A stretch of 64,000 bases of DNA, from contig NZ_JANHGR010000001.1 in assembly GCF_026616205.1 (NCBI RefSeq), positions 1,240,001 to 1,304,000 on the forward strand. Direction: 5' to 3'. The stretch is from Halolamina litorea (GTDB taxonomy: Archaea > Halobacteriota > Halobacteria > Halobacteriales > Haloferacaceae). Position numbers and translations under genes: made by a program. The notes below the pieces were generated by a model. That model did not search any database. It had not been told where the DNA came from and saw nothing but the letters and a program-made list of their open reading frames with translations. Shown here piece after piece: positions 6,647 through 21,431 of this stretch. Within the stretch, counting starts at the first letter, position 1. The number at the start of each line of letters is the position of its first letter.

Positions 6647-6851
6647 GGCTTCGATGCGGCCGCGCCTCCGGGAAACGTTGTCACCGTCGCTGTCGCGGAT
6701 GGAAAGCCATTAAGCCCCTCGCCGGCCACGCTCCGGTGGGAACAGCACGGCCGCAAATCTGACTCGCTCGGGCCGCCCGAGCTCTGAGATTGCGGAAGTG
6801 TACCGACGAGCAGTCGGTCTTTTCGCGGTCAGTGCCGTTCCAACTCAACCA

Positions 6852-14441: not shown

Positions 14442-14547
14442 ACCACTTCCCGCGTCCGGGAGCACTTAACTCCGTTCCGACCGCGGGGTGTGTGACCGTA
14501 TCGTATCGTGACGTGGGTTATTAATCGTGATGGTCTGAGCCGACACG

Positions 14548-14580
14548 TTTAACACCTGCTACCCTGTACCGTGGTGTACA
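14548..14580 (+). promoter_or_regulatory. leuA promoter with TGTAC-N6-GTACA palindrome
   Basis: A TATA-like tttaac (14548-14553) lies about 28-33 nt before ATG 14581, so transcription should begin at or near that ATG. TGTAC (14565-14569) and GTACA (14576-14580) form a perfect inverted repeat ending at the base before the ATG. A dimeric regulator bound here would cover the start site and block transcription. The regulator is unknown. Confidence 0.55.
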
Positions 14581-15817
14581 ATGTCTCACGACAACGAGGG
14601 CACGTCGGTATCCCCGGCGGATCGAGTTCTCCCAGGGCACGCTGAAAACTGATTCCGAGTTCGCCACGGCTCGGATCTTCGACACCACCCTGCGAGACGG
14701 TGAACAGTCGCCCCGTACTTCGTTCTCCTACGACGACAAACGCGAGATAGCCGCGGCGCTCGATACGGCGGGCGTCGACGCCATCGAGGCTGGCTTCCCG
14801 GTGAACTCCGACGCGGAGTTCGCCGCGGTCCGGGACATCGCGTCGGCGGCCGACACGACGGTGTGTGGGCTCGCCCGCGTCGTCGAGAAGGACGTCGAGG
14901 CCGCAATCGACGCCGGCGTCGATCTGGTCCACGTGTTCGCGTCGACCAGCGACGTCCAGATCGAGGACTCGATGCACGCCAGCCGCGAGGCCGTGATCGA
15001 GCGCTCGGTCCGGAGCGTCGAGCGCGCCGCCGAGTCCGGGGCCGAGGTGATGTTTTCCCCGATGGACGCCACCCGAACCGACCCCGACTACCTCGCCGAG
15101 GTGGTCGAGGCGGTATCGGCGGTCGGCGTCGATTGGATCAACGTCCCCGACACCTGCGGGGTCGCCACACCCGGGCGGTTCGCGGACCTGATCCGCACCG
15201 TTCGGGAACACACCGACGCGCGGATCGACGTGCATACGCACGACGACTTCGGGCTGGCGAGCGCGAACGCGCTGGCCGGGTTCGAGGCCGGCGCCGACCG
15301 GGCGCAGGTCTCAGTCGGCGGCATCGGCGAGCGCGCCGGCAACGCCGCCTTCGAGCAGGTCGTCATGGCCGCCGAGAGCGTCTACGGCGCAGACACCGGG
15401 GTCGACACCACGAAGATCACCGAACTGGCACGGATCGTCGAGGCACGCAGCGGCGTGCCGACGGCGCCGAACGCGCCGGTCGTCGGCGACAACGCGTTCG
15501 CCCACGAGTCCGGCATCCACGCCGCCGGCGTCATCGAGAACTCGGCGACGTTCGAGCCGGGCGTCATGACCCCGGAGATGGTCGGGGCCGAGCGCGAACT
15601 GGTGTTGGGCAAACACACCGGCACCCACTCGGTCCGCGAACGCCTGCGGCAGGCGGGCTACGACCCGACCGACGAGGAGGTCCGCGCGGTCACCCGCGAG
15701 GTGAAAGACCGCGGTGCCGCCGGCGACGAGATCACCGAGGACACCCTCACGACCGTCGCCGAGGCCAACGACGTGGCCCGAGAACCCGAACGTATCACGG
15801 AGGAACCGGCCCGATGA
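14581..15817 (+). CDS. leuA: 2-isopropylmalate (or citramalate) synthase, N-terminus frameshifted
   Basis: DRE-TIM metallolyase condensing acetyl-CoA with 2-oxoisovalerate (or pyruvate). The catalytic start RIFDTTLRDGEQSPRTSF (from about 14671), the HTHDDFGLA metal motif and NAFAHESGIHAAG are intact in the frame ending at 15817. No ATG exists in that frame before the catalytic motif. The promoter-proximal ATG 14581 opens another frame (MSHDNEGTSVSPADRVLPGH) that stops at 14652. Adding 5 nt at the gagtt at 14624-14628 would give SPADRVEFSQGTLK and join the frames. About 411 residues if repaired, lacking the bacterial C-terminal regulatory domain. Either a deletion, a sequencing error or recoding. 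Confidence 0.82.
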
Positions 15818-15878
15818 TCGCCGCCGAGGACGCCAGCCGCCAGCCACAGCGCTCCCGACCGTGTCACGCTGCAGCATG

Positions 15879-15899
15879 CCGTGAAAAGAGTTATCACGG
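15879..15899 (+). promoter_or_regulatory. Probable ilvB operon promoter within an inverted repeat
   Basis: A TATA-like gttatc (15890-15895) lies 25-30 nt before the ATG at 15920. It is flanked by CCGTG (15879-15883) and CACGG (15895-15899), an inverted repeat around the promoter element. This suggests ilvB has its own promoter separate from leuA. Operator function is inferred. Confidence 0.4.
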
Positions 15900-15919
15900 G
15901 CGACGCCGTGGCTCAGTTC

Positions 15920-15988
15920 ATGACGCGTCGACGCTACACCGGTTCGCCCGGCGTCAGCGTCTCGCTCGTGATTGTAGGGGCTGCCTGA
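15920..15988 (+). CDS. Putative ilvB leader peptide, rich in Val/Leu/Ile
   Basis: A 22-codon ORF, MTRRRYTGSPGVSVSLVIVGAA plus TGA read in two parts: MTRRRYTGSPG then VSVSLVIVGAA. Six of eight consecutive residues (V,S,V,S,L,V,I,V) are the end products of this pathway. They include the codons ATT and GTA, which look uncommon next to the GC-ending codons around them. The ATG is at the leaderless distance from the TATA-like box, and the ORF ends 70 nt before ilvB. This is the layout of a translation-sensing leader peptide. Its expression is unproven. Confidence 0.5.
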   Translation: MTRRRYTGSPGVSVSLVIVGAA

Positions 15989-16058
15989 CCCCTACCACCC
16001 CCTCTCCTCACCCGACTGTCGCATCACCCGACAACCGAGCCTGCAGCAACAGTTCCAC
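15989..16058 (+). promoter_or_regulatory. C-rich, G-poor leader between the upstream ORF and ilvB
   Basis: This 70-nt stretch is unusually rich in C and poor in G, with runs such as cccctaccaccccctctcc. It should be unstructured in RNA, unlike the surrounding coding sequence. Such segments can bind termination factors when ribosomes are absent. No Shine-Dalgarno sequence precedes the ilvB ATG. Confidence 0.4.
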
Positions 16059-17882
16059 ATGAGCGAGCGAGCACATCCGGCGCCACCTGAGGAGGGGACG
16101 GAGCCGGAACGCCACGACCGAACCGAACTGAGCGACGAACAGCCGACAGAGCCGGCGCCGCCGGCGACCGGTGCCGACGCCGCAATCGCCGCCCTCACGG
16201 CGGCCGGCGTCGAGCACGTCTTCGGCGTCCAGGGCGGAGCAATCATGCCCGTCTACGACGCGCTGGCGGAAGCCGACGACGGGCCGACGCATCTGACGAT
16301 GGCCCACGAGCAAGCCGCGGCTCACGCCGCGGACGCCTACGGGCAGGTCACCGGCGAGCCGGGAGTCTGTATGGCCACCTCCGGCCCGGGCGCGACGAAC
16401 CTCATCACCGGCATCGCCGACGCCGACATGGACTCGGACCCCGTCGTCGCGCTGACCGGACAGGTCCCGACCGAGTTCCTCGGCAACGACGCGTTCCAGG
16501 AGACCGACACCGTCGGCGTCACCCGACCGATCACGAAGGAGAACTACTTCGCGGGCGACGCCGACCGGATCGGCGCGACCGTCAGCGAGGCCGTCGAACT
16601 GGCCGGCGCCGGACGACCCGGGCCGACGCTGGTGGACCTGCCGAAGGACGCCAGCACGACCGAAACCGCGGCCGGCCCGGAACCGGGCCGGCTGCCGACG
16701 TACTACGACGTGCCAGACCGCGCCGACGAGTCGGCAATCGAGGCCGCCGCCGCGGCGTTCGAGGCGGCCGAGCGGCCGCTGGTACTGGCCGGCGGCGGCG
16801 TGGTGAAGGCGGAGGCAAGCGAGGAACTCCGGGCGTTCGTCAATGAAGCGGACGTGCCCGTGGTGACGACGATGCCGGGCATCGGCACCGTCCCCGAGGA
16901 CGACGAGCGCTGCCTCTCGTGGGCGGGAATGCACGGCACCGGCGCCGCCAACATGGCGGTGTCCCACACCGACTGCCTGTTCGCGGTCGGCACGCGTTTC
17001 GACGACCGGCTGACCGGGGGCGTCGAGACGTTCGCGCCCGACGCGACGGTGATCCACGCCGACATCGACGCCGCGGAGATATCCAAGAACGTCGAGGCCG
17101 ACCACGCGCTGGTCGGCGACGCCGCCGCCGTCATCGAGCAGATGCACGACGCGATGGCGACTGGGTCGAGCGACGGGAGCGAGACCGACACCGGCAGTGA
17201 CCGCCACGCGGCGTGGCGCGAGCAGTGTCGCGAGTGGCAGGACGACTACCCGATGACGTACGCGGCGCCGGAGGACGAGCCGCTCAAACCGCAGTTCGTC
17301 GTCGAGGCCGCCGACGCGGCGACGCCGGACGACGCCGTCGTCACCGCCGGCGTCGGCCAGCACCAGATGTGGGCCGCCCAGTACTGGACGTTCCGCCACC
17401 CCCGGAGTTGGGTCGCCAGCCACGGGCTGGGAACGATGGGCTACGGCCTGCCGGCCGCCATCGGTGCCAAGCTCGCCGCGCCCGACCGGGAGGTGGTCTG
17501 TTTCGAGGGCGACGGCTCGTTCCTGATGACGCTGCAGGAGCTCTCTGTCGCGGCCCGCGAGAACCTCGACGTGACCGTGATCGTACTCAACAACGAGGCG
17601 ATCGGGATGGTCCGGCAGTGGCAGGACGCCTTCTTCGAGGGGCGCCACACCGCCTCGGAGTACGGCTGGGTGCCCGAGTTCGCCGCCATCGCCGAGGCGT
17701 TCGGCGCGAAGGGGTTCACCCTGGAGACGTACGACGAGGTGGCGGACACCCTCGAAGCGGCGTTCGCCCACGACGGGCCGTCGGTCGTCGACGCCCGGAT
17801 CGACCCTCGGGAGAACGTCTACCCGATGGTCGAGAGCGGCGGCGACAACAGCGGGTTCGCGCTGGCGGAGGACCAGCTATGA
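16059..17882 (+). CDS. ilvB: Acetolactate synthase, large (catalytic) subunit
   Basis: A 607-residue ThDP enzyme making acetolactate or acetohydroxybutyrate, the first common step to Val, Leu and Ile. Features are FGVQGGAIMPVYDAL at the N-terminus, the catalytic Glu in MAHEQAAAHAADAYGQ, SGPGATNLITGIADA, GTRFDDRLTGG (FAD region) and the ThDP motif GDGSFLMTLQEL ending VIVLNN. About 35 acidic and polar residues precede the core. Cytoplasmic. The ATG overlaps nothing upstream; the end overlaps ilvN by 4 nt. It follows a putative leader peptide. Confidence 0.96.
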   Translation: MSERAHPAPPEEGTEPERHDRTELSDEQPTEPAPPATGADAAIAALTAAGVEHVFGVQGGAIMPVYDALAEADDGPTHLTMAHEQAAAHAADAYGQVTGEPGVCMATSGPGATNLITGIADADMDSDPVVALTGQVPTEFLGNDAFQETDTVGVTRPITKENYFAGDADRIGATVSEAVELAGAGRPGPTLVDLPKDASTTETAAGPEPGRLPTYYDVPDRADESAIEAAAAAFEAAERPLVLAGGGVVKAEASEELRAFVNEADVPVVTTMPGIGTVPEDDERCLSWAGMHGTGAANMAVSHTDCLFAVGTRFDDRLTGGVETFAPDATVIHADIDAAEISKNVEADHALVGDAAAVIEQMHDAMATGSSDGSETDTGSDRHAAWREQCREWQDDYPMTYAAPEDEPLKPQFVVEAADAATPDDAVVTAGVGQHQMWAAQYWTFRHPRSWVASHGLGTMGYGLPAAIGAKLAAPDREVVCFEGDGSFLMTLQELSVAARENLDVTVIVLNNEAIGMVRQWQDAFFEGRHTASEYGWVPEFAAIAEAFGAKGFTLETYDEVADTLEAAFAHDGPSVVDARIDPRENVYPMVESGGDNSGFALAEDQL

Positions 17883-19668: not shown

Positions 19669-20007
19669 ATGACCCGACACACCGACGCAGACGACCGATC
19701 GAACCGACGACGAACCGACCGAAGCGAGACCGAGGCCCGAACGATGGGCGAGGTTAGCCACACCAACCCCGAGACCGGCGAGACTTTCGGCGACTCCCAA
19801 GTGTACCAGCGCGGCCGCGTCGCCGTCGTCGACGGCGGTTCCGCGGGGTCGAAGGCCAAAGACGCCGAGGAGGACGCCGACGAGGAACCGATGGGCGAGG
19901 TCGACCACACGCCCCGCGAGGACGCCCCGAGCACGAACGAGGTGTACACGCGGGGCGACGAGGGGGCCGCCGAGGAAGAGGAGGAGGCAGGCGAGGACGC
20001 CGTATGA
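19669..20007 (+). CDS. Small acidic protein with duplicated MGEVxHT...VYxRG motif, between ilvC and leuC
   Basis: Unrecognised 112-residue protein (or 87 residues if it starts at the second Met, 19744). Two copies of a motif are clear: [13 protein letters not shown]...VYQRG (residues 26-49) and [13 protein letters not shown]...VYTRG (75-96), joined by a charged linker and followed by a Glu-rich tail. No membrane segment or cysteine. It starts 4 nt after the ilvC stop and overlaps leuC by 4 nt, so it is fully embedded in the branched-chain operon. A role in controlling or scaffolding these enzymes is a guess from location. Confidence 0.78.
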
Positions 20008-21431
20008 GCGAGGGGACGCTCTACGACGCGGTCTGGGACCGCCACCGCGTCCGTCGGCTCCCCAGCGGACAGGATCAGCTGTTCGTCGGCCTCCACCTCA
20101 TCCACGAGGTCACGAGTCCGCAGGCGTTCGGGATGCTGGAGGAGCGCGGCCTCGACATCGCCTACCCCGAGCGCACGCACGCGACGGCGGACCATATCGT
20201 TCCAACTGCCGACCGCGAGCGTCCCTACGGCGACGACGCGGCGGAGGCGATGATGAGCGAACTGGAGGAGAACGTCGCCGAGGCCGGGCTGACGTTCGAC
20301 CACCCCGACACCGGCCGGCAGGGGATCGTTCACGTCGTCGGCCCGGAGCAGGGGCTGACCCAGCCCGGAATGACCGTCGTCTGTGGGGACTCCCACACGG
20401 CGACCCACGGCGCCTTCGGCGCGCTGGCGTTCGGGATCGGGACCTCCCAGATCCGGGACGTGTTCGCCACCGGCACCGTCGCCATGGAGAAGCAGGCGGT
20501 GCGCCGGATCGAGGTGACGGGCGAACTCGGGGAGGGGGTCTCCGCGAAGGACCTGATCCTCACGATCATCGGCGAACTCGGCACCGACGGCGGCGTCGGC
20601 TACGTCTACGAGTACGGCGGCCCGGCGGTCGAGTCGCTCTCGATGGAGGGGCGGATGACCGTCTGCAACATGTCGATCGAGGGCGGCGCCCGCGCGGGCT
20701 ACGTCGAACCCGACGAGACCACCTACGAGTGGCTCCGCGACACCGACGCGTTCGAGAGCGACCCCGAGACGTTCGCCGAACTGAAGGAGTACTGGGAGGC
20801 GATCCGATCGGGCGACGACGCGACCTACGACGACGTGGTGACCATCGACGCCTCGGCTATCGAGCCGACCGTGACGTGGGGAACGACGCCGGGCCAGACG
20901 GCGGGGATCTCCGAGCCGGTGCCCGAACCGGCCGACCTCCCTCCCGAGGACCGCGCCGTCGCCGAGCGCGCACAGGCCCACATGGGCGTCGACCCCGGCG
21001 AGCCGATGGCCGGCTTCCCGATCGACGTGGCGTTCCTCGGCTCGTGTACGAACGCGCGGCTCTCGGACCTGCGCGCGGCCGCCGATATCGTCGAGGGCCG
21101 CGAGGTCGCCGACGACGTCCGCGGGCTCGTCGTTCCGGGCAGCCAGCGCGTGAAAGCCGCCGCCGAAGCCGAGGGGCTGGACGACGTGTTCCGCGAGGCC
21201 GGCTTCGAGTGGCGCGGCGCGGGCTGTTCGATGTGTCTCGGGATGAACGACGACCAACTCGTCGGCGACGAGGTCTGTGCCTCCTCCTCGAACCGGAACT
21301 TCGTCGGTCGGCAGGGGAGCGCCGACGGTCGGACGGTGCTGATGAGCCCCGAGATGGTCGCCGCCGCGGCGGTGACGGGGGAACTGACCGACGTGCGCGA
21401 ACTCGACGCCGCCCCGGAGGTGGCCCGATGA
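20004..21431 (+). CDS. leuC: 3-isopropylmalate dehydratase, large subunit
   Basis: A 475-residue aconitase-family subunit that isomerises 2- to 3-isopropylmalate together with LeuD. The [4Fe-4S] ligands are C in [12 protein letters not shown] and the pair in [11 protein letters not shown]. Other landmarks are [22 protein letters not shown]-type N-terminus, [20 protein letters not shown] and [11 protein letters not shown]. Overlaps both neighbours by 4 nt. Cytoplasmic. Confidence 0.96.

Follow-up and report, generated by a model that had tools for sequence, protein, structure and literature searches.

A short leaderless reading frame rich in valine, leucine and isoleucine codons lies immediately upstream of ilvB in Halolamina litorea, and comparison across the haloarchaea suggests that it very probably serves as a leader peptide whose translation, rather than whose product, matters: the position of the ribosome on it would sense charged tRNA and so control ilvB. 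The window, by which we mean the whole stretch of 64,000 nucleotides that was analysed, contains a branched-chain amino acid cluster that family matches delimit from leuA to a leuB-like gene, and the leader ORF falls in the gap between leuA and ilvB (Table 1). An earlier note on this DNA had described a leaderless 22-codon ORF with Val/Leu/Ile codons, among them unusual ATT and GTA codons, that ends 70 nt upstream of ilvB ahead of a C-rich and G-poor stretch, and had proposed looking for a conserved counterpart in relatives. All of this was borne out. The start of the TTAT box is 29 nt from the leader ATG, the leaderless distance, and the mRNA 5' end is predicted at that ATG or a few bases from it; the 70 nt between the leader stop and the ilvB ATG are 51% C and 13% G. 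A strict scan of the window for TATA-spaced ORFs with a length of 8-40 codons returned just two, one of them the leader, and this rarity, taken together with class-wide conservation, indicates that the ORF is more than a chance occurrence.

Table 1. Features of the leuA-ilvB region, in window coordinates
Feature	Position	Strand	Remarks
Out-of-frame ORF upstream of leuA	14581-14652	+	Promoter-spaced ATG at 14581; encodes MSHDNEGTSVSPADRVLPGHAEN, then stop; leuA in the +1 frame
leuA (leuA2 type)	frame from about 14615; ends 15817	+	Followed by a 241-nt gap to ilvB that contains the leader ORF
BRE/TATA-like promoter	15884-15894	+	AAAAGAGTTAT; TTAT at 15891-15894; kept in all congeners; box 29-32 nt from a leader-frame ATG in 79 of 82 haloarchaeal loci
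Leader ORF	15920-15988	+	ATG at 15920, stop at 15986-15988; encodes MTRRRYTGSPGVSVSLVIVGAA, then stop; 22 aa, ending SLVIVGAA
Candidate hairpin 1, inside the ORF	15930-15961	+	Arms GACGCT (15930-15935) and AGCGTC (15956-15961)
Control codons ATT GTA GGG (Ile-Val-Gly)	15971-15979	+	GTA invariant
Hairpin 2	15974-15995	+	Arms GTAGGGG (15974-15980) and CCCCTAC (15989-15995); stop TGA in the loop
C-rich, G-poor, mostly unpaired tract past the leader stop	15989-16033	+	Without a T run
ilvB, acetolactate synthase large subunit	16059-17882	+	TIGR00118, 671.6 bits (cut-off 538); ATG at 16059
ilvN, ilvC			Downstream of ilvB; family matches
leuC	20004-21431		Downstream of ilvB; family match
leuB-like gene			Downstream of ilvB; family match

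Conservation, frame and codon choice of the leader

The core of the element, AT[TC] GTA GGG followed by a stop, occurs within 420 nt of ilvB in 82 of 85 haloarchaeal loci and further upstream in the other three (in one of which CGC replaces the Ile codon), and GTAGGG with a C-rich arm behind it is present in all 85. When a promoter-spaced ATG was defined as one located upstream of the core and 22-32 nt downstream of a TATA-like box, a rule set after the first loci had been inspected, such an ATG fell in the leader frame in 79 of the 82 loci and in the other two frames in 2 and 0; the promoter-spaced leader ORFs are free of in-frame stops. Within the genus, the promoter, the ATG, the frame, the last codons and the hairpin are all kept among the Halolamina congeners, and the sequence between TATA box and ATG is variable. 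A covariance model of the leader element covering 59 positions (R1) finds the element in 142 of 145 Halobacteria genomes, mostly as a single match per genome, these being counts over related and thus non-independent genomes. Other classes of the phylum Halobacteriota gave background R1 scores only (best E 0.018), and the element was found in 0 of 20 ilvB upstream regions from Halobacteriota outside the Halobacteria. One genome with no R1 match (G016) still has a promoter-spaced ORF, which ends in SIRVRAAMAH before the stop and keeps the GTA codon. Separately, many haloarchaea, for example at loci L034, L092 and L099, have a second ORF between the leader stop and ilvB, also short and often with RYR...T, whose end meets or overlaps the ilvB start (ATGA), with translational coupling a possible role; it is missing in Halolamina.

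The codons of the leader are as distinctive as its position. In the leader frame, 34% of the codons at the eight positions preceding the core specify isoleucine, leucine or valine, as opposed to 6-7% in the other two frames (82 loci). At the core itself GTA and GGG are each found in 82 of 82 loci, and the Ile codon is ATT in 65 and ATC in 17; ATT thus reaches 79% at a position for which the same species' ilvB genes use it in 6.2% of their Ile codons, and GTA, which makes up 0.5% of Val codons in ilvB, is yet invariant. Of the 73 Leu codons found among the last eight leader positions, 71 are CTC or CTT, although in ilvB CTG supplies 45%. The invariance of GTA is not due to pairing, because its partner TAC is present in only 30 of the 82 loci and because GTA persists without GTAGGGG in G016 and in the hairpin-less valS leaders described below. 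In its placement and in its enrichment for cognate codons, the presumably translated ORF agrees with what is expected of an attenuator.

Hairpins, proposed mechanism and rival readings

Hairpin 2, which spans the stop codon and does not figure in the earlier note, is the best-supported candidate for an RNA switch. Its GGGG part has a pairing probability of 0.95 (79 loci) and its GGG:CCC pairs are formed in 63 of 63 cases, with one compensatory change from G-C to C-G (L039/L062), covariation being minimal since the stem hardly varies. In one clade the stop has shifted downstream and GGGGCG...CGCCCC is retained, which implies that hairpin and stop are separable. By geometry, hairpin 2 and a ribosome on the control codons would be mutually exclusive. 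There is moderate support for hairpin 1 as a real structure within the ORF: a stem is found in most loci, its arms differ in sequence between lineages with complementarity retained, and the longest Watson-Crick helix at the site measures 6.1 bp, compared with 4.8 in shuffled sequences, at a strength singly significant in only 11 of 78 loci. Past the leader stop, the first 20 nt contain 3-7% G (82 loci). No T run or recognised archaeal terminator follows hairpin 2 in the window, which accordingly has no U-run intrinsic terminator there, and no alternative antiterminator partner for the hairpin 2 arms was found. Rfam 15, with its T-box and other cis-regulatory RNAs, gave no match to the ilvB leader region at E up to 1 (window positions 14500-16400), and in none of 12 related loci did any family reach its gathering cut-off. 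Elsewhere in the window, at 6736-6801 on the + strand, is an S15-Halobacteria ribosomal protein leader (Rfam RF03143, 71.6 bits).

We propose that transcription would start at or near the leader ATG and that a ribosome would load directly on the bare 5' end of the nascent transcript, reading Val, Leu and Ile codons, always including the rare GTA, right before a GC hairpin over the stop. If Val- or Ile-tRNA were uncharged, the ribosome would wait there and cover the 5' arm, leaving the hairpin open; with amino acids plentiful it would reach the stop and leave, and the hairpin would close before the unpaired C-rich tract. The open state would favour ilvB and the genes behind it and the closed state would lower their expression, probably by early termination of transcription, a direction of effect suggested by physiology. 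Translation itself, stalling, the direction of the effect and the transcriptional step are what we infer here; conservation, frame, codon bias, hairpin and the match to the gene rest on comparison. The co-purification of RNA polymerase and ribosomal proteins in Hfx. volcanii (PMC8576121) counts in favour of this scheme, and others have suggested that the ribosome and aCPSF1/FttA compete for the polymerase (PMC8116511). The suggestion of the earlier note that a termination factor might act on the C-rich segment is without direct support, since FttA prefers U-rich RNA (PMC11616081). Its attenuation-type reading of the branched-chain leader before ilvB passed the comparison with relatives that it had proposed, given the core in 85 of 85 loci, the in-frame promoter-spaced ATG in 79 of 82 and the cognate valS, pheS and trpS leaders. 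The second layer that it had added, a promoter-spanning inverted repeat, is not conserved: CCGTGA (15879-15884) and TCACGG (15894-15899) are indeed in the window, but the repeat is intact in none of the six other congener rows. As an operator it was rejected, being intact solely in the window's own sequence among the seven rows.

How far the peptide itself matters can be judged from how it varies. The in-frame ATG shows that the reading frame is preserved, but the body of the peptide is not conserved, since substitutions among closer pairs are spread about equally over the three codon positions (612/692/698); this is how a leader peptide would be expected to behave. A conserved functional microprotein upstream of ilvB could account for class-wide conservation of the ORF; the missing excess at third positions, a length that ranges from 18 to 55 aa and the lack of any Pfam or NCBIfam match make it extremely improbable. 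The peptide end, I-V-G-A/V, is near-constant and the stop comes one or two codons after it in most loci, which would suit a TnaC-like nascent-peptide arrest in which the IVGA end senses a free branched-chain amino acid in the ribosome. We nonetheless consider such an arrest unlikely, because GTA is never swapped for the common GTC or GTG, as peptide sensing would permit, and because the Ile may be replaced by Leu, Arg or Phe and the distance from IVG to the stop spans 1 to 6 codons. The pattern is the reverse of a TnaC-type signature, in which amino acids are conserved regardless of codon: here GTA is fixed and the neighbouring residues vary.

The near-palindromic and very conserved GTAGGGG/CCCCTAC repeat could itself be the functional element, as an operator or an RNA site for a regulatory protein to which the ORF is incidental. 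This is very unlikely when set against the in-frame promoter-spaced ATG, the confinement of the branched-chain bias to the leader frame, the persistence of GTA where its pairing arm or even the hairpin is missing, and the agreement of leader amino acids with valS, pheS and trpS. A different output from the same sensor deserves more weight, and that the leader acts on ilvB translation or mRNA stability rather than on transcription termination is a tentative possibility. The window's lack of a T-rich terminator behind hairpin 2 speaks for it, as does the ATGA-overlapping second ORF of many relatives, which could couple translation. However, depending on the locus, the leader stop is as little as about 70 or as much as several hundred nt away from ilvB, no conserved pairing with the region of the ilvB start was seen, and Halolamina has no second ORF.

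Cognate leaders at synthetase genes and the start of leuA

The ilvB leader would be one of a set of haloarchaeal leaderless leaders with codons cognate to the gene behind them: Val before valS, Phe before pheS and Trp before a second trpS. A weaker second R1 match was found in many genomes of one family (f4) and in some others, and in all 12 that were checked it lies upstream of a valS frame, identified in those 12 by the DTPPPTVSG..HMGH region and, in G010 and G011, by TIGR00422 at the same places. Phe (TTC) takes the place of the Ile codon in 11 of these 12 leaders and Arg (CGT) in one, GTA is kept, and most have an extra Val codon beside it, as in leaders that end TVFVGAP or LVRVGAS before the stop. 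In another family (f2, L235-L242) valS is preceded by an unrelated leaderless ORF of 9-10 codons with a tandem GTA GTA (MSVGTAVVRV and MRVVAVVRE, each followed by the stop; ...GTA GTA CGT), so that the same principle appears to have originated independently there. In 21 of 29 genomes pheS is preceded by a promoter-spaced ORF with a Phe cluster at its end, most haloarchaeal pheS leaders ending GFGFFF; the Halolamina litorea genome is one of the 21, and its ORF (L282) reads MAPDTAARTHRHAADGRGVGFFFA. In many haloarchaea a conserved GCGAAACCG-like motif follows the pheS leader after some tens of nt. The second, better-scoring trpS copy has a W-R-W leader (WRW or WRWW) in 8 of 9 cases.

Under one strict rule, F-rich leaders were confined to pheS (15 of 29) and W-rich leaders to trpS (6 of 30), with neither kind at any of 82 ilvB or 29 valS loci. 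As negative controls, no Ile leader was found before ileS and no Trp leader before trpE, in 29 genomes each. The amino acid therefore matches the gene, as the specificity of an attenuator demands: Val with valS, Phe with pheS, Trp with trpS, and Ile, Val and Leu with ilvB. A stop-codon hairpin was considered as a feature common to all leaders and rejected, the mean fold z being -0.3 at pheS, -0.6 at trpS and +0.3 at valS of the f2 clade, which suggests that what follows the sensing step may not be the same at every gene. In line with the placement of these leaders, dRNA-seq of Hfx. volcanii has placed uORFs with mapped starts, one of 26 aa before pheS and one of 23 aa before a trpS, which may not be the ORFs found here (PMC4983044).

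The neighbouring leuA presents a frame problem of its own. In the window its frame has no in-frame ATG, GTG or TTG before the conserved N-terminal part, and the same holds in about half of 48 related loci; the region contains a near-invariant core, CCGGCGGRTCGAGTTCTTCCAGGGCAC. In all 46 haloarchaeal loci that have a promoter-spaced leuA ATG, it is shifted against the leuA frame by one and the same offset, and a sequencing error was dropped as an explanation given that the problem is conserved. The start of leuA2 (HVO_1510) is a known open problem for which ribosomal slippage, and also expression only without leucine, have been suggested (PMC8305020), and the class-wide out-of-frame promoter ATG supports the slippage alternative. 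The constant offset favours a +1 slippage at the leuA start, possibly dependent on leucine. That earlier case belongs to the same gene cluster but concerns the coding start of leuA2, and the main text of its report does not mention ilvB.

Relation to known attenuators

Attenuation through a leader peptide that responds to an amino acid belongs to the textbook mechanisms of bacteria and requires transcription and translation to be closely coupled, and the leaders of E. coli ilvGMEDA, ilvBN and leu are such attenuators of branched-chain operons; the Phe-rich pheM leader of E. coli pheST is among those of synthetase genes. The haloarchaeal ilvB leader shares with the bacterial branched-chain attenuators a short Ile/Val/Leu ORF close upstream of ilv genes and a hairpin just behind the control codons. 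It differs from them in its archaeal host, in its leaderless start at a promoter-set 5' end, in a hairpin that overlaps the stop, and in that no U-run terminator or antiterminator was found. The pheS leaders likewise resemble pheM in being Phe-rich and placed before pheS, in the form GFGFFF, but are unrelated to it in sequence, leaderless and archaeal, with no terminator structure identified. A further bacterial attenuator of this type is the uORF of Corynebacterium ilvBNC (PMC10272879, PMC11857589). In archaea there is a likeness to the uORFs in long 5'-UTRs of Hfx. volcanii (Babski et al. 2016, PMC4983044), which are small ORFs too, with mapped transcription starts; those were reported as small proteins only, with no link to cognate codons or attenuation, and ilvB is not in the table. 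For Hfx. volcanii there are also insertion mutants of ilvB1 and ilvC (PMC4300041). The open-access literature that we searched, outside which most subscription papers lie, yielded bacterial ilv attenuators and no report of leader-peptide attenuation in archaea.

Taken together, we consider it likely that haloarchaea possess a class-wide set of leaderless, ribosome-read attenuators that sense tRNA charging, above all that of the GTA-reading tRNA-Val, and control genes for amino-acid synthesis and aminoacyl-tRNA synthetases. These would represent the first ribosome-mediated attenuation in archaea and would have arisen repeatedly, as the two unrelated Val leaders of valS suggest, and a leuA2 start that depends on a frameshift would be another translation sensor in the same cluster. 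If so, the principle of attenuation extends to a domain whose RNA polymerase and termination machinery are different and whose mRNAs are mostly leaderless, and these leaders would offer a native and, in Haloferax, genetically tractable test bed for the coupling of archaeal RNA polymerase and ribosome and for the control of termination.
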